A stretch of 15,401 nt of DNA from Actinomycetota bacterium (lineage in GTDB: Bacteria; Actinomycetota; Coriobacteriia; Coriobacteriales; RUG844), in NCBI GenBank assembly GCA_013335845.1, contig JAAXUU010000006.1, positions 1 to 15,401 on the forward strand. The letters are read 5' to 3'. The notes under the pieces are model-generated. The model did not search any database, was not told the origin of the DNA, and worked only from the letters and a program-made list of their open reading frames with translations. The translations under genes and the position numbers were made by a program. Numbering within the stretch: position 1 is the first letter of the stretch; each line of letters starts with the position of its first letter. Positions 1,619 to 12,893 of the stretch are shown one piece after another.

Positions 1619-2257
1619 CTACTCGGAAATTCCGTAGGGGGTTTGCCACTCACACGGGTCGGGTGCCGAAATGCCTCTGATGCCGGCGATGAGTATTTCT
1701 ATGCCACTCGAAAACGAATCCGTGGTGTACGCTTTCCTAGCCGTCTTAAGCCATTGTTCCGCACTGTCGTCACCAGGGAGTTCTTGGGCGGCAACCATAC
1801 CGATCTCATTGATGAGAAAACCAGTCAAAAAGGCATCTATCAATGCCCACGTTCTTTCAAGAATATGTTCAGGCATGTTTTGGGACGCATGGAGTGTGAT
1901 TATCCTTTGCGTATGCTCGCGCATAGACGGACTCCATGCAAAAGAAGAATTTATCGCCGATGCTACATTGGGATATTCGAGATACACATCACGTATTGAT
2001 GCAGTAGTTCTGCGAAGGGTGTCGTCCCAAAATTCGCCTGGAATAGGGGATGTATCCACATAACGCATGAATTTGGTGCATGCGGCATCGATTATCTCTT
2101 CGCGTGATCCGAAATAAGAATAGAGAGCCATTCCGCTCACACCGAGTCTTGCACCCAGATTCCGCATAGAAAAAGATTGCACCCCTTGCTCATCGATGAG
2201 AGAAAAGGCGGTGTCAATAATAGCTTCTCGGCTCAGCCGTGTTTTGGTTTCTGCCAT
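1619..2257 (-). CDS. TetR/AcrR-family transcriptional regulator
   Basis: Ligand-responsive DNA-binding repressor of 212 residues, the usual TetR size. The N-terminal 10-55 is a typical TetR helix-turn-helix: LSREAIIDTAFSLIDEQG, then RNLGARLGVSGMALYSYF as recognition region. The rest should be the all-helical ligand and dimer domain, which gives no clue to the ligand. The start is supported by GGAAGAG a few bases upstream of the ATG. It lies between the flavoprotein/cytochrome operon (upstream, same strand) and the phosphorylase. The flavoprotein promoter carries two perfect odd-length palindromes of the kind TetR dimers bind, so the likeliest job is repressing that operon; this is inference. 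No matching palindrome was seen in front of the TetR gene itself, so autoregulation is not evident. Confidence 0.92.
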   Translation of the reverse strand: MAETKTRLSREAIIDTAFSLIDEQGVQSFSMRNLGARLGVSGMALYSYFGSREEIIDAACTKFMRYVDTSPIPGEFWDDTLRRTTASIRDVYLEYPNVASAINSSFAWSPSMREHTQRIITLHASQNMPEHILERTWALIDAFLTGFLINEIGMVAAQELPGDDSAEQWLKTARKAYTTDSFSSGIEILIAGIRGISAPDPCEWQTPYGISE

Positions 2258-2506: not shown

Positions 2507-2860
2507 CTATTTGCCGCTAGGCGCATAGTCATGGCAGTTATCGCATTGGTTATCGATCTCAGTGTGAGCACCATCGTGGCAATTCACGCAAGAGTTGTAC
2601 CCACCGTGGATAGAATCATGTGGATTCCAGTCGCCGAAATCAGCCGTTACCGTAGCAAGACCCTCATAGCTTTCGCCATGGCAGGAGAGGCAAGTCGCGT
2701 CATCTATAAAGGTGATTTCAGCTAGGTTGACTTCTGATTTATCCGTACTCGCAGACTCGATTTTCGGCTGACCGCACGCCGTGACAGCAAGTGCCAGCGC
2801 AAACACCACAACAACACACACAATCGAAAGCATTGAACGTACGAAACGTGATTTTTCCAT
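2507..2860 (-). CDS. Triheme c-type cytochrome, lipoprotein
   Basis: Small multiheme electron carrier of 117 residues. A hydrophobic signal segment (10-28) ends in the lipobox VTAC with Cys29 as the lipid-anchored residue, so the protein should sit on the outer face of the cytoplasmic membrane. Three CXXCH heme sites follow at 57-61 (CLSCH), 91-95 (CVNCH) and 106-110 (CDNCH), with extra His at 81, 85 and 99 available as second axial ligands. It is shorter than the four-heme domain of Shewanella flavocytochrome c3, which it may replace as a separate subunit. Its ATG lies 2 bp after the stop of the flavoprotein gene, so the two are almost certainly co-transcribed and translationally coupled. 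Likely role (inference): passing electrons from a membrane quinol dehydrogenase to that flavoprotein. Confidence 0.9.
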   Translation of the reverse strand: MEKSRFVRSMLSIVCVVVVFALALAVTACGQPKIESASTDKSEVNLAEITFIDDATCLSCHGESYEGLATVTADFGDWNPHDSIHGGYNSCVNCHDGAHTEIDNQCDNCHDYAPSGK

Positions 2861-2862
2861 TG

Positions 2863-4578
2863 CTATGCTCCCTTCACGGCGTTCTCGGCGGAAACATAAG
2901 CGAACGTGATCGCCCTACCAATGGATGTACCGGGAATATGACGAGGGTAGTTTCCGCTGAAGAAGTTACCGGATGCATTTCCGACCGCGTACAACCCTTT
3001 AATGGGTGCGTCGTTGATATCCATGACATTGCAATTACCATCAATCGTCAGACCACCGACAGTGGCGAGGATGCAACTATTCGTAGTGAGCGCGTAATAG
3101 GTACTACCGGTAAACGGAGCAGCCATACCCATGAATCGATTGAAATCCTCGTCTTTGCCATTGGCTTGATACGTATTGAATTTGCTGATGGTGGCCTCAA
3201 GTCCGTCGGGGTCGATGCCGCATTTCTCGGCAAGTTCACGCGGAGAAGATGCCTCGAACGCCCAGCCTTTTTCTTCGAACTCCGCAATCGCCTCTTTCAT
3301 CCCGGCGAAATCTACATCGGTGAAACCAAACATGGTATCGTCGAAAATCTGCCAACAATTCGCACCATAACCAGGTTGGGCATTTTGCGCATTCGACACC
3401 GCCTGGAACGGTAGATCCTCATTGCAATAACGCTCGCCCTTGGCGTTAACGTTGATAGCAAACCAAATCGCATACCACGTACGAGCATCGAAGAACGAAT
3501 CCGGATTGCCCCAGCGGAAATTCATCACAGGTTGCGGAACCGGATCCATTTGAGCTCCGATTTGGAGACCCATCATGTGCCCATCTCCTGTTGTACCCCA
3601 ACCGGGATTCCACCAACTGGAACTCGCATAATCTTCGGGGCGGCAGTACGCTTCCATCATCTCAGGGTTGGCATCATATCCCCCGGTCGCGAGTATCACT
3701 CCTTTGGCAGCGGAAACACGGAAGTAGCCATCATCGTCTTTAGCGATGCACCCGGTGCACCGGCCTTGATCGTCAGTCTCAAGTTGCACGGCCGGTGTTG
3801 AAAACCTCATATCGACATTAGTCATGCCTTTTGCTATTTCTGCAAGCTCTTGGCATACGTATATGCCCGATAATCCCGAACGAATCGCAGCATCGGGGGG
3901 CAATGAAGGGCTCGTGTAGAAACCAAGTTCGGAATCGAATACCGGGAAGCCATTCGTATTAGGCATCTGTTCGACACGATCGATCAAAAAACCATTTGCA
4001 CCTTTACCCAGCATCGTTTGCATGAAGTCGGTTGCTTCCCCAGAACGATGCACATAGGTACGGGCAGGCTCGGGGCGAGTACGCCAAAACGCGGAACGAT
4101 ACAGCTCATCAAGCAAAGCCGCTCTGTCGATTACTATACCCTTGTCTTTCTGTACTTGCGCATCGACTGCGCCGAAACACTCAAAGCAACCTCGCCCTTT
4201 TGTCATTTTCTCAAGCGTAATTACCTTCGCGCCTTCGTCAGCAGCCTTGAGCGTGGCGATAAGCCCTCCGATTCCGGCACCCACTACCAAAATATCGCAC
4301 TCTTCCGTCCGAATGACTTCGCTTTCCTCAATGGCGCGGCCTTCGAAAGCGACCGGCCCTCGTGGACCGGGACAATCTACTTTCTTAACGTACAAACTTG
4401 CCGGATCTTGCTCGAAAACTGACGAGTATACAGATTCCCCTGCAACCTGTTCCTCGGCCCGAGCGACAGATGGACCCCCGACGATACCTAATGCATTTGC
4501 GCCTACGGCGAGTCCTGCAGCACCAAGAGCAGTCCCTTTGAAAAAATCGCGCCTTGAGAGATTCCTGTTCTCTTCCAT
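2863..4578 (-). CDS. Tat-exported FAD-dependent reductase (fumarate/urocanate reductase-like)
   Basis: Flavoprotein of 571 residues of the fumarate reductase/succinate dehydrogenase flavoprotein family, probably a terminal reductase for an unsaturated organic acceptor. A Tat signal (SRRDFFK at 8-14, hydrophobic stretch, ARA at 39-41) gives an exported mature protein from about residue 42. The FAD Rossmann motif is GAGIGG at 100-105 with ribose-binding Glu123. The C-terminal FAD segment GLYAVGNASGN begins near 528 and is followed by YPRHIPGTS, whose Arg546 is a candidate catalytic proton donor. Odd: where relatives have a GGNS/T-type segment after the first Glu, this protein has GRGCFECFG (128-136) with two cysteines. 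The start has a strong AAGGAGGAGGAG ribosome site. It is first gene of an operon with the triheme cytochrome and carries two operator-like palindromes in its promoter. Substrate unknown. Confidence 0.92.
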   Translation of the reverse strand: MEENRNLSRRDFFKGTALGAAGLAVGANALGIVGGPSVARAEEQVAGESVYSSVFEQDPASLYVKKVDCPGPRGPVAFEGRAIEESEVIRTEECDILVVGAGIGGLIATLKAADEGAKVITLEKMTKGRGCFECFGAVDAQVQKDKGIVIDRAALLDELYRSAFWRTRPEPARTYVHRSGEATDFMQTMLGKGANGFLIDRVEQMPNTNGFPVFDSELGFYTSPSLPPDAAIRSGLSGIYVCQELAEIAKGMTNVDMRFSTPAVQLETDDQGRCTGCIAKDDDGYFRVSAAKGVILATGGYDANPEMMEAYCRPEDYASSSWWNPGWGTTGDGHMMGLQIGAQMDPVPQPVMNFRWGNPDSFFDARTWYAIWFAINVNAKGERYCNEDLPFQAVSNAQNAQPGYGANCWQIFDDTMFGFTDVDFAGMKEAIAEFEEKGWAFEASSPRELAEKCGIDPDGLEATISKFNTYQANGKDEDFNRFMGMAAPFTGSTYYALTTNSCILATVGGLTIDGNCNVMDINDAPIKGLYAVGNASGNFFSGNYPRHIPGTSIGRAITFAYVSAENAVKGA

Positions 4579-4626: not shown

Positions 4627-4651
4627 TATTACTTTACACTGTAAAGTAATA
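4627..4651. promoter_or_regulatory. Operator-like palindrome, proximal copy
   Basis: A perfect 12-1-12 inverted repeat centred on C4639, with core TTTACA-C-TGTAAA at 4633-4645. Odd-length perfect palindromes of this form are typical targets of TetR dimers. It overlaps the putative -10 and start region of the flavoprotein operon. The TetR protein encoded at 1619-2257 is the obvious candidate binder, which is inferred from position only. Confidence 0.7.
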
Positions 4652-4678
4652 GTACTACCAATAGGTTTACACTGTAAA
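4649..4678 (-). promoter_or_regulatory. Probable promoter of the flavoprotein-cytochrome operon
   Basis: On the minus strand, TTTACA (4673-4678) and TACTAT (4649-4654) are spaced by 18 bp, a reasonable sigma70-type match. Both hexamers are part of, or touch, the two palindromes at 4627-4651 and 4666-4678, so a protein bound to these would block RNA polymerase directly. An alternative -10 lies in the TATATATA run at 4621-4629. Confidence 0.45.
4666..4678. promoter_or_regulatory. Operator-like palindrome, distal copy
   Basis: A second exact copy of the 13-bp core TTTACACTGTAAA, centred on C4672. The centre-to-centre distance to the other copy is 33 bp, about three helical turns, so both would face roughly the same side of the DNA. 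It overlaps the putative -35. Exact duplication argues strongly for a real operator. Confidence 0.7.
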
Positions 4679-5028: not shown

Positions 5029-5208
5029 ATGTGCTACCCTTGCTCACATTGTAATGAATGCGGAAGATATTCGATAAAGATGACTCTGGCTTGTGCGGAA
5101 TGCGGCGCCCCTATTGTCCCGGGTACCAGTAAATGCACCATTTGCGAGGCTCCCTTGGTCAATAAAATGAAGACCGATAAACTGACGACACGCGAAAGTA
5201 CAAGCTAA
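5029..5208 (+). CDS. Small cysteine-rich zinc-ribbon protein
   Basis: A 59-residue ORF beginning MCYPCSHCNECGRY. Cys at 2, 5, 8 and 11 form a C-x2-C-x2-C-x2-C cluster, followed by CAEC (22-25) and CTIC (36-39), which together look like a zinc-ribbon pair. The C-terminal 15 residues are polar and charged. The very regular cysteine spacing makes chance unlikely, and I recall similar microproteins beginning MCYPCSHCN in Eggerthellaceae (memory, not a search). The ribosome site is weak (AGAAAAGAG about 8 bp upstream). It stands alone on the + strand between two minus-strand genes. Function unknown; zinc ribbons this short often bind protein or nucleic acid. A minus-strand ORF overlaps it (see rejected list). 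Confidence 0.7.
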   Translation: MCYPCSHCNECGRYSIKMTLACAECGAPIVPGTSKCTICEAPLVNKMKTDKLTTRESTS

Positions 5209-6210: not shown

Positions 6211-7866
6211 TTACTTCGCAGCAAGCGCTTTTCCGACGATATAACCGAATGTGTAACAACGGCCAAGCGATTGTCCCGGTACGACCATGGGATAGTCGGG
6301 CGAGCCGAAGTAACCGCCGGCGCAGTTACCGATCGCATAGAGTCCTTCGATAGGAACTCCATTGGCATCGAGTACCGCTGAATCACCGTTTACCTCAAGA
6401 CCGCTGAAGGTGCCGGTCAGTCTCTGCCAGCGCTTCATCGCATAGAACGGAGGGGTCATAAGAGAGGTGGTCATGAACTTCTTCGGCTTACCGAAGTCGA
6501 GGTCGAGCCCCTTCGCGCAAAGCTCATTGTACCTCTCAACCGTCTTCACGAAGGTATCTGCAGGAACGCCGATCTTCTCGGCAAGTTCTTCGAGAGTGTC
6601 AGCTTTGTACGTCGAGATAAGATCCTCGAAGACTCCGACGCGCTCGACTTCCTCTTCCGGCATCCAGACTTTCAACGCCTCAGGGTCGACGAGACGACCG
6701 GGCCACGCTGCTGCCTGAGTCATATAGTTGCTATCGAAGAGCTGGGCGTAATAGCCGGTATTCTCCTTCTGCTTCAGATAGTTGTTCTGCTCAGCCATCT
6801 CGCAGGTTTCGTTGCAATAACGCTCGCCTTTCATATTCACATTAAGGAAAGGCATGTCGCACATGGATGCGGGACCACCGTCGAAGTCGTGAAGGCATTT
6901 GGTGTGCCCGATATTTTCCATGATACCGCCGGCCCAGACACCCATCTTGATACCGTCGCCGGTCTTGCCCATCTGTTTGCGGACGAAGTTCTTCGCATCT
7001 GGGATGTAGTAATCGCACATCTCCTGGTCATTTTGGAAGTCGCCTGTAGCGAGAACGATACCCTTCTTAGCGACGAACTTGATGTAGCCGGCCTCTCCTT
7101 TGCCGATAACCGCTATGACCTTCTCGCCCTCTTTGACCAACTGCACACCGGGGGTGTTGAAGAAGAACTCAACTCCTGCTTCTGCAGCGACCTTGGCAAG
7201 AACTTCCATACCATCGCCAGCCGAATATGGCTTGGGGCCGAACTGGGAGGTTACAAAGGTGATGGGCACACCGTCTATGTTCGAGATGGCAGCTGCCATA
7301 GCATTCTTTATATCTGCAACTTGAGCACCGCCCGCGAGAGAACGCTCGATAACCCATTTGACCGCCTCGCCGGAATTCTCAGCCCAGGCTCGGACAAGAT
7401 CAACCTTGCTGCGATACGTGCAAGCTTTGAGCACCTGACCCATGACTGCCGCAGCGGCGCCCTCGCCACTTTCTTCGAGATTGATGCCGGTACCGGTGTT
7501 TCCCTGAGCTATAGGCTTCGACTCCTTCTGGAGCACAGCAACACTCGCGCCACCCTCAAAGGCGGAAAGTGCACAAGGAACTCCGGCTGCACCCGCGCCG
7601 ACGATAACAATGTCATACTCTTTCGTTTCGACGATTTCAGAGTCGGCGATCGGCGCCGGCTCCACGAAGAAGCTGGGGATCATCTGCGCGGCATGGCCCA
7701 TAACAACTGCGGGATCGAGTGCGCTTACAACCTCAACCTCCGACTCGGCCGGCTTACCACATGCAGTGAGAAGGCTGGCACTCGCCACGCCCGCTGCCGC
7801 GACTCCGCCGAATTTGAATAAATCGCGACGAGAGATCCCAGAAGCACCTTTTGCGTTTTCTTTCAT
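6211..7866 (-). CDS. Tat-exported lipoprotein FAD-dependent reductase (fumarate reductase-like)
   Basis: Flavoprotein of 551 residues, same broad family as the other two in the window but clearly distinct in sequence. It has a Tat motif (SRRDLFK at 12-18) and a lipobox LTAC ending at Cys36, so it should be Tat-exported and lipid-anchored. The Rossmann motif is GAGAAG at 90-95. Odd: the acidic residue expected at the end of the second strand is Gln (VLQKES), where the other two have Glu. The C-terminal segment GLYAIGNCAGGYFGSPDYP is followed by PGQSLGRC, without the Arg seen after YP in the 2863-4578 protein. The frame opens at 7953, but the tandem ATGs at 7869/7866 directly follow GGAAGGGG; 7866 gives better spacing and the Tat signal at the N-terminus. 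No cytochrome gene is adjacent. The divergent LuxR protein is the likely regulator. Substrate unknown. Confidence 0.9.
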   Translation of the reverse strand: MKENAKGASGISRRDLFKFGGVAAAGVASASLLTACGKPAESEVEVVSALDPAVVMGHAAQMIPSFFVEPAPIADSEIVETKEYDIVIVGAGAAGVPCALSAFEGGASVAVLQKESKPIAQGNTGTGINLEESGEGAAAAVMGQVLKACTYRSKVDLVRAWAENSGEAVKWVIERSLAGGAQVADIKNAMAAAISNIDGVPITFVTSQFGPKPYSAGDGMEVLAKVAAEAGVEFFFNTPGVQLVKEGEKVIAVIGKGEAGYIKFVAKKGIVLATGDFQNDQEMCDYYIPDAKNFVRKQMGKTGDGIKMGVWAGGIMENIGHTKCLHDFDGGPASMCDMPFLNVNMKGERYCNETCEMAEQNNYLKQKENTGYYAQLFDSNYMTQAAAWPGRLVDPEALKVWMPEEEVERVGVFEDLISTYKADTLEELAEKIGVPADTFVKTVERYNELCAKGLDLDFGKPKKFMTTSLMTPPFYAMKRWQRLTGTFSGLEVNGDSAVLDANGVPIEGLYAIGNCAGGYFGSPDYPMVVPGQSLGRCYTFGYIVGKALAAK

Positions 7867-8032
7867 CATTTCCCCTTCCGTATATCTATCTTTTCGTTGA
7901 ATGATTGACCAACGCTGCGAATGATGCACGAAACTCTTCTCGTTTTTAATCATCCGCTTAACGGAATGGGGTGACTATCTTGATAATCCCCTCTCGTAAT
8001 ACCCTTGTTTAGCTGCGGAAATGCCTCCGCAC

Positions 8033-8060
8033 TTGAATTAGGTCCACTTTTCGTTAGAAT
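8033..8060 (+). promoter_or_regulatory. Probable promoter of the LuxR-type regulator gene
   Basis: TTGAAT (8033-8038) and TAGAAT (8055-8060) are 16 bp apart. The same -10 hexamer occurs in the proposed phosphorylase promoter. Immediately upstream, TGCGGA/TCCGCA (8014-8019 and 8026-8031) form a 6-bp inverted repeat that could be a regulator site in this divergent region, though it is short enough to be chance. Confidence 0.45.
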
Positions 8061-8090
8061 GGCACAATCAGAAAAGGGGGCATTGCATAG

Positions 8091-9557
8091 ATGGTTATCG
8101 AAAAACAAAAAATACCAGACGAAGCTTTATTCGCTACCGATATCCCGGACGAAGGGGTGAGTCGGCGAGGCCTGGGTCTCCCTATCGCATCAATTTTATT
8201 TCTCGGATTGGGCCTCTATCGCGCCTGGATCGAAATCGTCTACGTCGGATCATTCAGCGAATTCGCGATTCAACAGCAAGGTATCCGAGACACCTTCGAT
8301 CTTTCCGCCGTTGCGATCTGGGCGATTTTCGCGATCTTCGCGAAAAAGATCGGGCCGTTGTATAACAAGCGTTGGCCGTACATCTCGTCTGCACTGCTAC
8401 TCACACTCTCGACTATCGCCACCTTCATGGCGGGATTCAATGCAGATATCGCTACAATGACAACTCTGCCCGCCGCGATTTCGGCAGGTGTCGGTATCGC
8501 ACTACTGGTCTTGCTCTGGTCGGAATATTTCGGGTCATTGAACCCGATTCGGGTTGCGGTATATTATTCCGCTTCGATACTGGTCGGAGCACTTGTTATC
8601 TATATCTTCAAGGGTTTCATGTCCTCCTATCTCGCGACCTTCACGGCCACCCTGCCTATTCTCTCTGCATTGTGTGTCTACGTGAGCTTCAAAACCATCC
8701 GTGCTGAAAACCTCCCGTCAACCACCTGGGCTCGATTCTCATTTCCCTGGAAGCCCGTCCTATTGATGGCCATCTACAGCTTTGCGTACGGCCTTAGGGA
8801 GAACACACTGTATTCAACGAGCGGACCCCACTCATCTGTGGGTGTCATCTTCGCTGCCTTGATCGTTCTTGCCGGAGTCATATACCAAGGGAAGAAATTC
8901 AACTTCGGAGTTATGTATCGTATAGGAATGCCTTGTATGATCGGTGCCTTTCTTTTGATCCCCTCTTTTGGGTTTCCCGGAGATTTCCTATCCAATTTCT
9001 GCGTTTCGGCGAGCTATACCGCGTTTTCGATACTGGTGATGATCATATTCAGCAATCTATCGTATCGTCTTGGCGTAAGTGCGCTATGGCTCTTTGGCAT
9101 CGAGCGAGCCGTCCGTCAAGTCTCCATGTTCGGAGGCAGGGAAACCAGCAACGCGATCAACGATCTGATCGTCGGGCAGTATCTAAACGAAATCACAGTC
9201 AATGTGATCATCATCTTGCTCGTAGTAGTCGTCACCTTGATGCTGATTTCCGAGAAGGGCCACTCCTCCATGTGGGGCATGAGCTTCATCCCCTCAGACG
9301 ACGCGGAAGCCGATGAGGAGTATACCAAACGTCATGCAATAGGCAGCATCTGTAGGAGTATCGCCGAGAAGTTCGGGCTCACCGCTCGCGAGGAGGAGGT
9401 CCTCTTGCTTCTCGCGCAAAAGAGCACGATCAGCGAGATCGAGCGCGAACTTTTCATTGCGGAGGGGACGGCCAAAGCTCATGTCAGGCATATCTACTAC
9501 AAGCTGGATATACACTCCCGCGATGAATTATTCGAACTGGTCGAATCCTACGGGTAA
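8091..9557 (+). CDS. LuxR-type regulator with N-terminal 12-helix membrane domain
   Basis: Membrane-bound transcription factor of 488 residues. Residues about 25-385 consist of successive hydrophobic segments, consistent with roughly 12 transmembrane helices of transporter-like fold. The C-terminal 428-488 is a LuxR/GerE helix-turn-helix: LTAREEEVLLLLAQ, then FIAEGTAKAHVRHIYYKL. A soluble linker with acidic residues joins them. This architecture is expanded in Eggerthella and relatives, where such genes often sit next to Tat flavoprotein or molybdenum reductase genes (established pattern). Start ATG at 8091 follows AAAAGGGGG about ten bases upstream. It is divergent from the flavoprotein gene at 6211-7866, so it most likely senses that enzyme's substrate at the membrane and activates its transcription; this is inference. 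It converges on the next flavoprotein gene across two hairpins. Confidence 0.93.
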   Translation: MVIEKQKIPDEALFATDIPDEGVSRRGLGLPIASILFLGLGLYRAWIEIVYVGSFSEFAIQQQGIRDTFDLSAVAIWAIFAIFAKKIGPLYNKRWPYISSALLLTLSTIATFMAGFNADIATMTTLPAAISAGVGIALLVLLWSEYFGSLNPIRVAVYYSASILVGALVIYIFKGFMSSYLATFTATLPILSALCVYVSFKTIRAENLPSTTWARFSFPWKPVLLMAIYSFAYGLRENTLYSTSGPHSSVGVIFAALIVLAGVIYQGKKFNFGVMYRIGMPCMIGAFLLIPSFGFPGDFLSNFCVSASYTAFSILVMIIFSNLSYRLGVSALWLFGIERAVRQVSMFGGRETSNAINDLIVGQYLNEITVNVIIILLVVVVTLMLISEKGHSSMWGMSFIPSDDAEADEEYTKRHAIGSICRSIAEKFGLTAREEEVLLLLAQKSTISEIERELFIAEGTAKAHVRHIYYKLDIHSRDELFELVESYG

Positions 9558-9583
9558 GCTCGCGAGTTGATCGAGCAATAAGA

Positions 9584-9617
9584 GATGGTTGGTCAGGCAT
9601 CCGCTCCACCAACCATC
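9584..9617. terminator. Hairpin 1 between convergent genes
   Basis: GATGGTTGGT (9584-9593) pairs perfectly with ACCAACCATC (9608-9617) around a 14-nt loop, 27 bp after the LuxR stop. It probably ends LuxR transcription, or protects its 3' end. No long U run follows. Its 3' arm can also pair with the 5' arm of the next hairpin. Confidence 0.55.
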
Positions 9618-9629
9618 CCACTAGAAAGC

Positions 9630-9664
9630 AGTAAGGGATGGTCCCGTTAGAACCATCCCTTACT
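9630..9664. terminator. Hairpin 2 between convergent genes, bidirectional
   Basis: A perfect 13-bp stem (9630-9642 with 9652-9664) and 9-nt loop, midway between the convergent LuxR and flavoprotein genes, so it can serve both strands. The flanks carry only short T or A runs, so its termination mechanism is unproven. Position and stability make it a good bidirectional terminator candidate. Confidence 0.6.
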
Positions 9665-9715
9665 CACAATGAATTACTGCCTAGTGCAAGCGTCCGTGTG
9701 ATTATGCAATCACGA

Positions 9716-11047
9716 TTATGCGACCACTTCGTTCGCCATTTTACGTCCTGCGATTCGTCCGAATGCGAGTGAGAAGCTCACGTAGGTACCGCAACCCGGA
9801 TAGTTGCTGGGAACGCCGAAGATGTTGGTTCCGGTATCGCAGCCGGAAGCATAGAGATGCGGAATCGGATTGCCGTCGATATCGAGCACCTGAGCATCGG
9901 TGTTGATACGGACTCCACCATGGAATTCCGCCATGTTCATAGCGGGAACCTCCATGAAGCCTTCGTCGTCCATGTTCAACCAAGAGTTGAAGACTTTGTT
10001 GTACTTTGGGTCGAACGAATATACCTGAGCAACAGGGATGGGATAGTAATTAGGCATGTTGTAGAGATCTGCGCCGATGCCCATGGCGGCGAGGATGCCG
10101 TCTCCTTCGCAGTCATAGCACATGTACGTTTTGTAGGCCAAAGCTTCCTGGCAGAATCTCATCTTCATCTCATCGGATGCGGGGAATCCACCGGTTCCGA
10201 GCATAACACCCTTTGTGGCTTTGATATTGATATCGCCGGCCTCGGTTTTCGCGATGACGCCGATAACAGCGCCACTGTCGTCTTGGATGAATCTGCTCAA
10301 GGCTGTCTTGAATTGGACCGTAACGGTACCTTCTCCGACCTTCGAGTTGATGTTCTCGTACATCGGCTCGAACAGTTCAGGACCGGAATTTGCTGCTCCG
10401 GATTTAGCCCAGTGTGAGCGAGGAATAGCCTCTTCCAACGTGAGACCGAACTTCTCGTATTCGCATCCCGTAGCATTCAAGCAGCCTGAGGTCACACCGT
10501 TACCGCCTCCTGATTGCTTTGCGCCGGCAGCACCGGAGTTCTCGACGGCCTTGGCAACCTCGAACAGATCACGACCACAATACTCGGTGCACATTGCCTC
10601 AAGCCAATCGACGTTCGGGCCGGCTTCGAGCGAAAAGGTCTTGATGATGTCATCGGGACACAATTCGTACTTTTCGTTTACGCAGGTCTTCACCCAATTG
10701 TATAAACCCTCGGCTGTGTCCGTTATGCCAAGCTCACTTTGTACCCTGGTGGGTGCACCCATGATAGCCCCACCACAACGAGCCATGGATCCACCCGGAA
10801 GGGCGGCTTTCTCGATAATGAGGACCTTGGCGCCATTATCGGCAGCTTCGATGGCACATGATGCACCTGCGGCGCCGTAGCCGCATACCAATACTTCTGT
10901 TTCCAAATCCCACGTGATATCACTTTGAGCGGTTGTTGCTTTTGCCGCAGAACCGCATCCGGTAAGAGCGCCGGCCCCAGCTGCAACGCCCGCAACGGCT
11001 AGAGTCTTAAGAAATGACCGACGTGACGGTGCTTCGAAGTTCTTCAT
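9716..11047 (-). CDS. Tat-exported lipoprotein FAD-dependent reductase, short form
   Basis: Flavoprotein of 443 residues, about 110-130 shorter than the other two in the window. It has a Tat motif (SRRSFLK at 8-14) and a lipobox LTGC ending at Cys31, so it should be a surface-exposed, membrane-anchored protein. The Rossmann motif is GYGAAG at 56-61 with Glu79, followed by LPGGSMARCGGAIMG, close to the fumarate reductase consensus. Near the C-terminus, FHGGVRI and HLYASGCDTG form the second FAD-contact region. The YPGCGT segment lacks the Arg that follows YP in the 2863-4578 protein. The frame opens at 11149, but ATG 11047 is chosen because AAGAAGG lies about 8 bp upstream and the Tat signal then starts the protein. 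It follows the hexaheme cytochrome gene after 77 bp, so the two should be one operon. Substrate unknown. Confidence 0.92.
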   Translation of the reverse strand: MKNFEAPSRRSFLKTLAVAGVAAGAGALTGCGSAAKATTAQSDITWDLETEVLVCGYGAAGASCAIEAADNGAKVLIIEKAALPGGSMARCGGAIMGAPTRVQSELGITDTAEGLYNWVKTCVNEKYELCPDDIIKTFSLEAGPNVDWLEAMCTEYCGRDLFEVAKAVENSGAAGAKQSGGGNGVTSGCLNATGCEYEKFGLTLEEAIPRSHWAKSGAANSGPELFEPMYENINSKVGEGTVTVQFKTALSRFIQDDSGAVIGVIAKTEAGDINIKATKGVMLGTGGFPASDEMKMRFCQEALAYKTYMCYDCEGDGILAAMGIGADLYNMPNYYPIPVAQVYSFDPKYNKVFNSWLNMDDEGFMEVPAMNMAEFHGGVRINTDAQVLDIDGNPIPHLYASGCDTGTNIFGVPSNYPGCGTYVSFSLAFGRIAGRKMANEVVA

Positions 11048-11124
11048 AATGAGCCTTCTTTCTGTAAGATTATCTGTTTGATCCCGAACTGATAATGGGT
11101 AAAACCAATAGTCATTGCTTGCCG

Positions 11125-11742
11125 TTATACCGCATGGCAGGTTCCACACTCGTACACATCAGTGTGGTGACAAGTTGAGCACATCCGATCCGCTGACTTC
11201 TGCAGATTGGTGGTCGAATGCATTTTGTGACAATCGACACAGGTGACAGTCGCGTGATCATCACTTACCGGCAGATCATGTGGATTTGCCACATTCCCGT
11301 TAGCATCAGTGAGCACAATACTGTCAGCCGTTGCTATCTTGAGCTCCTCGACGTCGTGACACGATTGGCATATCGCTGCCGTATCGACCGTAGTTGCCGA
11401 GAGACTGGACGCCCCTTCACTCGAGGTGTTTGCGTGCACGGTTCCCAACGTCGTTGTATCGGTGTGGCATGTCACGCAATCGAGTGTTGCGTGTTTCGAT
11501 GTCAGGCACTCTGCATTCGTAAACGATGACGACTCCTTATCGTGACACATAGAACAGTCAGACTCAGGTGACCACTCAATCGATGCCGCAGTTTCTACAG
11601 TTGTTTCTTCCTGCGACTCTTTGCCTGTCTGAGCGACGTCTCCTGCGTTTGCAGGTGCACATGCTACTATCGAGAACAACATGATCAAGAGTACTAGGCT
11701 GGCAGCAAACTTTCTGCTCAATAAGGATTCTCGGTGTTTCAT
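11125..11742 (-). CDS. Hexaheme c-type cytochrome, lipoprotein
   Basis: Electron-transfer protein of 205 residues. A signal segment (about 12-27) ends in VAC with lipid-anchor Cys28, then a Thr/Glu-rich linker to about 56. Six CXXCH heme sites follow: 63-67, 89-93, 125-129, 168-172, 188-192 and 199-203, with further His at 84, 103, 155, 163, 175 and 193 as possible distal ligands. The last two heme sites are crowded at the C-terminus and the protein ends one residue after CHA. The start has an excellent GAGGGGAGG ribosome site. It is first gene of an operon with the short flavoprotein and is divergent from the LysR gene. It is probably the dedicated electron donor of that flavoprotein on the outer membrane face, analogous to the cytochrome domain of flavocytochrome c3 but with six hemes. 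Confidence 0.92.
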   Translation of the reverse strand: MKHRESLLSRKFAASLVLLIMLFSIVACAPANAGDVAQTGKESQEETTVETAASIEWSPESDCSMCHDKESSSFTNAECLTSKHATLDCVTCHTDTTTLGTVHANTSSEGASSLSATTVDTAAICQSCHDVEELKIATADSIVLTDANGNVANPHDLPVSDDHATVTCVDCHKMHSTTNLQKSADRMCSTCHHTDVYECGTCHAV

Positions 11743-11888
11743 TTTTAAACCTCCCCTCTCATTCCCGTTCCCTCCCCTAAATCAAATGGTACGCTCGATA
11801 TAGGAGATTAGTTCCAACGATAAACACGGGGCACCCTGAGAAAAAGTGCGCTATACTATGCAAAATCTGCACAGCGCATTGAATTGCC

Positions 11889-11910
11889 TGCACGCTGATT
11901 ATCAGGTGCA
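11889..11910. promoter_or_regulatory. Possible LysR operator in the divergent intergenic region
   Basis: TGCAC-G-CTGAT-T-ATCAG-GTGCA reads as an inverted repeat with ten pairs and one unpaired G, lying about 60 bp before the LysR start and 150 bp before the hexaheme cytochrome start. LysR proteins usually bind interrupted palindromes in such divergent spacers. Several further TGCA-containing motifs surround it (11855-11925). Binding is inferred only from position and symmetry. Confidence 0.45.
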
Positions 11911-11972
11911 AAGGCGTAAAATTGCATCTTGAGATCTAACGGGGAATATGTGCAAAAAGCATCGGGGGATGT

Positions 11973-12893
11973 ATGGAAATCGAGATCTTGCGGGAATTCA
12001 TCGTGTTCTCAAAACACTTGAATATCACCAAAGCGGCTTGTGAATTGCACCTCTCGCCATCCACGTTAAGCAGGCATCTTTCGGCTCTCGAAAAGGAGTT
12101 TGGGATACCGCTTATCGCGCATAAATCAACCAATGTGGCGTTAACAAAGGGTGGCTCGATCGCCTTGGAACACGCTTGCGCGATCTCATCCGAATATCAA
12201 GTGCTATGCGCTCACATGAATTCGTTGAAACATGTCGAGTTCAATGATATCCGGATAGATTACGCTTTAGATGATAGACAGGTCATCGACCGGATCTCCC
12301 TTGTAAAGAAGAGCATAAAACAGTGCCTGCCCAATGTTACCGTGAAGCCATGCCATATCCGTGGTAAAGAGATGTTCGATGCCCTGCTGGATAGGTCCGT
12401 CGATGTCGTCGTGCTCTATGACCTCGATGCGGTAGATGTCTCAATGTGTTCGATTATCCCTCTGATGACCGATTCGATGGTCATCGCGCTCCCACTTGGG
12501 AACCCATTCAGTGGACGGCCCGATGTGACGCTCGATAAAGTCGCTGACAGGAAAATCCCTTGGCCCACAGCGTCGACTGATAATTACCTTCAATGCGTTC
12601 TGAAACTTTTCAAGGACTCAAACCAACAGCCATCGATACGGTTCGTAGATTCCGACAACATGGATGAGTTCTTCATGCATGACCTTGCCGAGGATGAAAT
12701 GTGGGTTTTCTCACGTAAACAGCTTGAGAACTATGCTACGAATATTCCCGCCTCGTACCGTCAAAGTTGCGAGATATTCGAATTCGCCGACGTCGATACC
12801 ACATTCACTCGGTACGCCGTTTATCTGAATGATAACGAGAACCTATCGGTTCCGATGTTCGTCGAGGCGCTCACACGCTCGGAGCTTTGCTAA
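11973..12893 (+). CDS. LysR-family transcriptional regulator
   Basis: DNA-binding regulator of 306 residues, the standard LysR length. The N-terminal 1-60 is the winged helix-turn-helix: LREFIVFSKHLNITKAACEL, then LSPSTLSRHLSALEKEFG. The following 85-300 should be the periplasmic-binding-protein-like effector domain, which diverges enough that no ligand can be named. The ATG at 11973 has GGGGGAT just upstream. It is divergent from the hexaheme cytochrome/flavoprotein operon across 230 bp, the classical LysR arrangement, so it most likely activates that operon in response to its substrate and represses itself. Its 3' end faces the DUF4352-like gene, with a shared hairpin at 13112-13146 in between. 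Confidence 0.93.
   Translation: MEIEILREFIVFSKHLNITKAACELHLSPSTLSRHLSALEKEFGIPLIAHKSTNVALTKGGSIALEHACAISSEYQVLCAHMNSLKHVEFNDIRIDYALDDRQVIDRISLVKKSIKQCLPNVTVKPCHIRGKEMFDALLDRSVDVVVLYDLDAVDVSMCSIIPLMTDSMVIALPLGNPFSGRPDVTLDKVADRKIPWPTASTDNYLQCVLKLFKDSNQQPSIRFVDSDNMDEFFMHDLAEDEMWVFSRKQLENYATNIPASYRQSCEIFEFADVDTTFTRYAVYLNDNENLSVPMFVEALTRSELC

Follow-up and report, generated by a model that had tools for sequence, protein, structure and literature searches.

In the tetracycline resistance system (Tn10 / class D; structure 1QPI), the tet promoter carries two tetO sites, and in Streptomyces the TetR-family proteins ActR and SimR control antibiotic export. In local TetR circuits the enzyme is usually induced by its own type of substrate. 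Among flavoproteins of FAD_binding_2-type fold, the closest described systems are flavocytochrome c3 fumarate reductase (1qo8), which carries a c-type haem, and urocanate reductase (6t85/6t86). Another is the cgr operon of the gut actinobacterium Eggerthella lenta, of which Cgr1 is a cytochrome. The cgr report (PMC5953540) describes a two-gene operon (Cgr1/Cgr2) for a Tat-exported FAD reductase and names a LuxR-type regulator, Cac3, next to it.

The locus analysed here, from a bacterium of the same group as E. lenta, has features in common with these systems. By description it can be set beside cgr as a two-gene operon for a Tat-exported FAD reductase, yet its regulator is of the TetR type, and its flavoprotein shares the FAD_binding_2-type fold with the fumarate and urocanate enzymes. 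The regulator has the same fold as tetracycline TetR (TM 0.70 to 1QPI) and, like it, is accompanied by two operators at the promoter, each an odd-centred palindrome with G at +2, and by an arginine (Arg32) that aligns with Arg28. It differs in being only about 22% identical, in operator bases that depart from tetO from +3 outward, in having a reductase rather than an efflux pump as its target, and, among same-strand loci, in having no core site in front of the TetR gene. ActR is the top structural match to the TetR model (21-25% identity), and SimR is its top solved sequence match.

We consider it highly probable (roughly 87%), from sequence comparison, that the TetR encoded at 1619-2257 uses the two sites upstream of the flavoprotein gene as its operators, and that bound TetR represses the flavoprotein-cytochrome operon. 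The features concerned are listed by coordinates in the window, which is the whole analysed stretch of 15,401 nucleotides.

1619-2257, minus strand: TetR repressor with TetR_N and TetR_C_1 domains, 212 aa, predicted to bind both operators
2424-2461, no strand: perfect hairpin (18-bp stem, 2-nt loop) that separates the cytochrome gene from the TetR gene
2507-2860, minus strand: small c-type cytochrome (Cytochrom_c3_2), 117 aa, three CXXCH motifs found by eye, predicted electron donor
2863-4578, minus strand: FAD_binding_2 flavoprotein reductase (profile match), 571 aa, with a Tat signal
4627-4651, no strand: proximal operator, core 4633-4645 within a 25-bp palindrome, expected over the transcription start as judged from the -10
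4649-4654 (read 4654-4649), minus strand: predicted -10 element TACTAT, located between the two operators with an 18-bp spacer to the -35
4666-4678, minus strand: distal operator TTTACAGTGTAAA, whose first hexamer (4678-4673) doubles as a -35 element

The motif TTTACACTGTAAA occurs in two exact copies in the window (4633-4645 and 4666-4678), 33 bp apart from start to start. An inverted-repeat search placed the proximal copy within a perfect 25-bp palindrome (4627-4651) with an unpaired centre, its 12-nt arms (4627-4638 and 4640-4651) being 100% complementary across a 1-nt spacer. Both observations had been made in an earlier note on this DNA, and both hold as described. Allowing up to two mismatches returned these two sites and no others in the window, each with zero mismatches, although 9 of 200 shuffled windows also contained at least two such sites. 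Across the organism's own draft genome (429 contigs totalling 1,979,912 bases; completeness 85.75%), exact copies are confined to this promoter. The 15-mer CTTTACANTGTAAAG with up to two mismatches matched four sites there, namely the pair and two more, fewer than the six sites matched by the reversed pattern. The earlier note had proposed the motif as a handle on a wider regulon; the exact and two-mismatch scans of the draft genome gave no further good site, so that this appears to be a single-target switch, with the proviso that a site could be overlooked in a genome of this completeness and fragmentation.

The organism's own family comprises three genomes, the other two of which lack the TetR at E <= 1e-15, and the comparison was therefore widened to the class. 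At E <= 1e-10, 66 of the 396 genomes searched have TetR relatives; we took the own genome and 40 relatives (the 25 left out have a best E of 3e-20 or weaker) and added five other genomes, which gave 52 TetRs in 51 loci, window included. Thirty-six of the 52 TetRs adjoin a flavoprotein relative, 17 on the same strand with TetR downstream and 19 divergently, and every same-strand relative has a separate cytochrome match. All operators were scored by the core TAC[AG]n[CT]GTA, which leaves the outer three bases free. The operator pair is present in 15 of the 17 same-strand flavoprotein-cytochrome-TetR loci, window included: 13 were found by script, one by hand (at a shortened flavoprotein), and one has its gene start and pair on a separate contig. 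The remaining two (L165 and L170) have no site in the 97-109 bp that can be read upstream before the contig ends; in 12 of the 13 scripted loci a stretch of this length would take in the proximal site, and the two may thus be true misses. L178 has a flavoprotein shortened near its N-terminus (about 9500-9720) and retains the operator pair (9657, 9704).

The 26 scripted operators have TTAC at positions 5 to 2 in 52 of 52 halves; the search pattern dictates positions 4 to 2 but leaves position 5 free. Position 7 is C in 46 of the 52. We scored the upstream regions of 30 of the 50 flavoprotein places, with five more as paralogue controls. The core occurs 45 times in 24 of the 30 regions, whereas 200 shuffles averaged 0.285 (maximum 2) and a 14.1-kb coding control had none. 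Two of the six regions without a core site are cut by contig ends, one belongs to a shortened gene, and three belong to homologues of 46-50% identity with no TetR match in the stretch examined. A pair search blind to genes in the 396 genomes returned 13 places (zero in the reversed control), 12 of them at the gene of this flavoprotein. The thirteenth, a TTTAC-type pair (genome G254; L258, 4472-4528), is found where a UbiA prenyltransferase gene begins, in a stretch without a flavoprotein of this kind. The pair is carried by Paraeggerthella hongkongensis DSM 16106, at its flavoprotein, and by the one-contig genome G072 (3,632,260 bp). In genome G158 a 72% identical flavoprotein has the pair CTTTACACCGTAAAG and CTTTACACAGTAAAG, 33 bp apart, one of the two sites being one mismatch from the core; no TetR lies beside it, and the closest TetR, on the same contig at a distance of about 780 kb, has a CTT-type helix. 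The earlier assignment of the sites to the downstream TetR at the flavoprotein promoter gains support from this comparison, which that note had suggested, as the pair is kept upstream of most orthologues and is rare in the genome. Titles and abstract openings in the literature, a scope that leaves most subscription papers outside, contained no description of this operator or of this TetR-flavoprotein pair.

The geometry of the promoter is likewise conserved. A TTTACA -35-like hexamer lies inside the distal operator (4678-4673, minus strand), and although a promoter scan by itself is at background level (3 found, 3.2 expected), the distal TTTACA is followed by TAnnnT in all 13 same-strand loci scored, after 17 bp in 12 of them and 18 bp in the window (spacers of 16-19 allowed, the best one kept). 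L175, the sole divergent locus in this comparison, lacks a TAnnnT -10. The distance between operators falls into two classes in the 13 scripted loci, 32-33 bp in eight and 44-47 bp in five; both classes retain the promoter, and only the second operator shifts. Of the earlier claim that the operators overlap both promoter elements, the -35 part stands, whereas the -10 falls between the two sites. A proximal operator that covers the expected start or follows it closely fits the geometry of a repressor that would block RNA polymerase. We propose that a TetR dimer would sit on each of the two operators, one of which holds the -35 hexamer while the other covers the expected transcription start; occupation of either would block RNA polymerase and keep the flavoprotein-cytochrome operon off, and a small molecule, by analogy with other TetR_C_1 repressors, would release TetR and allow the reductase to be made. 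Such a switch is of an ordinary, classical kind.

The same TetR might instead activate from the same sites, or act both ways, as activators exist among TetR-family members. We regard this as very unlikely, given that all 13 same-strand loci scored have a -35-like hexamer inside the distal operator and a -10 at a set distance from it, which occlusion explains better. Comparison of sequences establishes that the sites exist and are conserved, that they go with this TetR family, and how the promoter is arranged; that TetR binds, that it represses rather than activates, and that a ligand releases it are steps that we infer from these. Induction by a ligand, and the earlier note's idea that the ligand is or resembles the electron acceptor, are suggestions drawn from membership of the TetR family.

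The TetR protein scores 44.1 for TetR_N (gathering score 24) and 26.4 for TetR_C_1 (gathering score 21) in Pfam, which places it in the TetR_C_1 subfamily, and 58.8 bits against the NCBIfam model of the tetracycline resistance repressor TetR, far from the cut-off of 265. Its structural model (pLDDT 89) matches 1QPI and places the helices of the helix-turn-helix at residues 31-38 and 42-45. W77, H115, H123, Q126 and W169 of the ligand domain are invariant in 18 homologues, and Arg32 is invariant in both TetR alignments made. Its counterpart Arg28 in tetracycline TetR contacts the G at +2 of tetO, and Trp43, which aligns with residue 47, is among the base-touching residues (PMC7102968). The sites here also have G at +2, a base that the search core requires. 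None of the 17 same-strand loci has a core site upstream of TetR itself, so the usual autoregulation is not seen there and TetR probably has its own promoter, for which there is a weak candidate at 2374-2345. An inverted repeat, GATAAGAT...ATCTTATC (2339-2346 and 2385-2392), precedes the TetR gene and is a possible site of another regulator. The 250-bp gap between the cytochrome and TetR genes contains the hairpin at 2424-2461, which may mark the end of the operon transcript; a terminator scan made no call at it.

For 42 of the 52 TetRs a core site could be assigned, by preference one near the flavoprotein and otherwise one upstream of TetR; the other ten have none nearby. In these 42 TetR/operator sets the outer operator bases sort by the recognition helix of the TetR. 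Position 7 is G when residue 47 is Arg and only then, a rule that holds in all 42 sets (nine with both, 33 with neither); position 5 is A or T where residue 42 is Ala or Gly, and G where it is Pro or Thr, in 40 of 42 (the exceptions being L152 and L172). The two residues were chosen by eye from the same table that was later used for scoring, so this covariation is a description and not an independent test. On a tree built from the ligand domain only, residue 47 switched three times and the base followed every time (sign test p 0.25), three switches being too few for significance; for residue 42, about 3 of 4 independent switches agree. L175 has a divergent TetR from another clade and nevertheless a Gly35/Ala42 helix, with one full CTTTACACCGTAAAG operator and one mixed. 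Gly35 was also considered as the cause of the CTT spelling and is a weaker candidate than residue 42: the sets with Gly35 have T (14), A (5) or G (1) at position 5, and those without it have G (15) or A (7). In the five two-TetR genomes with assignable operators (G158, G209, G224, G252 and G254) the triplets differ in 5 of 5, the G158 assignment being itself made in trans. Distant TetRs (27-31% identity) with TGGTACAnTGTACCA pairs were found in L214, L215 and L216; those of L214 and L216 have FAD_binding_2 genes beside them, and L214 also has a sodium:alanine symporter gene nearby.

The palindromes could also be symmetric promoter DNA, or the sites of a factor encoded outside the window, with a coincidental link to TetR. 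TTTACA does resemble a -35 hexamer, and similar pairs occur in Vibrionaceae stretches without this TetR, but operator conservation is far above that in shuffles, the spelling covaries with the TetR helix, and five paralogues (49-53% identity) in switch-bearing genomes have no pair at their promoters, one of them having a lone core match at -342; coincidence is thus a remote prospect. Pairs of the form TTTACAnTGTAAA are frequent in Vibrionaceae: at least 118 stretches in a public genome set have them, mostly from that family, and among these only L127 (from P. hongkongensis DSM 16106) has the flavoprotein, while L045 and L077 have a weak TetR relative. The Vibrionaceae pairs are probably the sites of another regulator, and the spelling alone is therefore not diagnostic outside the group.

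Equally improbable, and rejected here, is that the sites serve the LysR-type (11973-12893) or LuxR-type (8091-9557) regulator also encoded in the window: the palindrome is as long as a LysR box and TTTACANTGTAAA fits the T-N11-A rule for such boxes, but LysR has no match in the 36 related stretches at E 1e-8 and is no conserved neighbour, and LuxR-type matches are inconsistent (7 of 36), whereas the operators are kept in the related stretches and track the TetR helix.

The sequence observation thus holds, and assignment of the operators to TetR is well supported by these comparisons. Of most interest is that relatives carry different operator spellings, each matched to the repressor. The outer triplets are CTT, GTA/GTG, CTG, CCG/ACG, GCG, CTA and TGG, with CTG and GCG at one locus each. 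A tentative proposal, to which we give slightly less than even odds, is that one TetR family of this actinobacterial group has spread into about seven spellings around a fixed TACAnTGTA core, read mainly by residues 42 and 47, and that cross-talk is avoided in this way between parallel circuits, for reductases or other targets, in one cell. The matched TetR/operator sets would form a panel of possibly orthogonal switches, useful in bacteria of this kind, for which there are few genetic tools. The locus itself offers a concrete switch on a reductase common to many Eggerthella-like bacteria, and should that reductase be induced by substrates of its own type, a promoter reporter would be a direct route to the compound.

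The flavoprotein has flavocytochrome c3 and urocanate reductase as its nearest solved relatives by both sequence and fold, and its Tat signal is barely over the Pfam cut-off. Sequence and fold searches for a substrate led to the broad FAD_binding_2 group only. The flavocytochrome c model TIGR01813 scored 175.4 against a cut-off of 285.45, and a pairwise alignment with 1qo8 gives no match for the TTRD arginine or for the two histidines of GIHHTMGG, which we take to be active-site residues of the fumarate enzyme. A YPRHIPGTS stretch is nearly invariant in 21 homologues. The structural model is fair (mean pLDDT 73.8), with low-confidence stretches within 301-363, 500-506 and 543-545. The protein is most likely a reductase of an organic acceptor that receives electrons from the cytochrome, which would make it a respiratory terminal enzyme.

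Homologues of the flavoprotein number 386, and the matches listed include proteins from Gordonibacter, Rubneribacter, Adlercreutzia, Denitrobacterium and Slackia. Among the 120 listed, all 51 that are longer than 600 aa have one CXXCH and the 69 shorter ones have none. Four long homologues (P0030, P0056, P0062 and P0099) have the haem in a C-terminal tail like the end of the separate cytochrome, resembling a gene fusion or split. Reading frames are 665-929 aa in nine divergent loci (at least 60% identity) and 562-634 aa in unbroken same-strand loci, so the fused form accompanies the divergent arrangement.

Beyond the operon, a 59-aa open reading frame (5029-5208, plus strand) is divergent from the flavoprotein gene; several CxxC pairs, found by eye, give it the look of a tiny zinc-ribbon protein. 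The region 6211-12893 encodes further flavoproteins (6211-7953 and 9716-11149), a second cytochrome (11125-11742), the LuxR-type protein, which has a long N-terminal region, and, at its end, the LysR protein. The window holds three flavoprotein units side by side, with three kinds of regulator.
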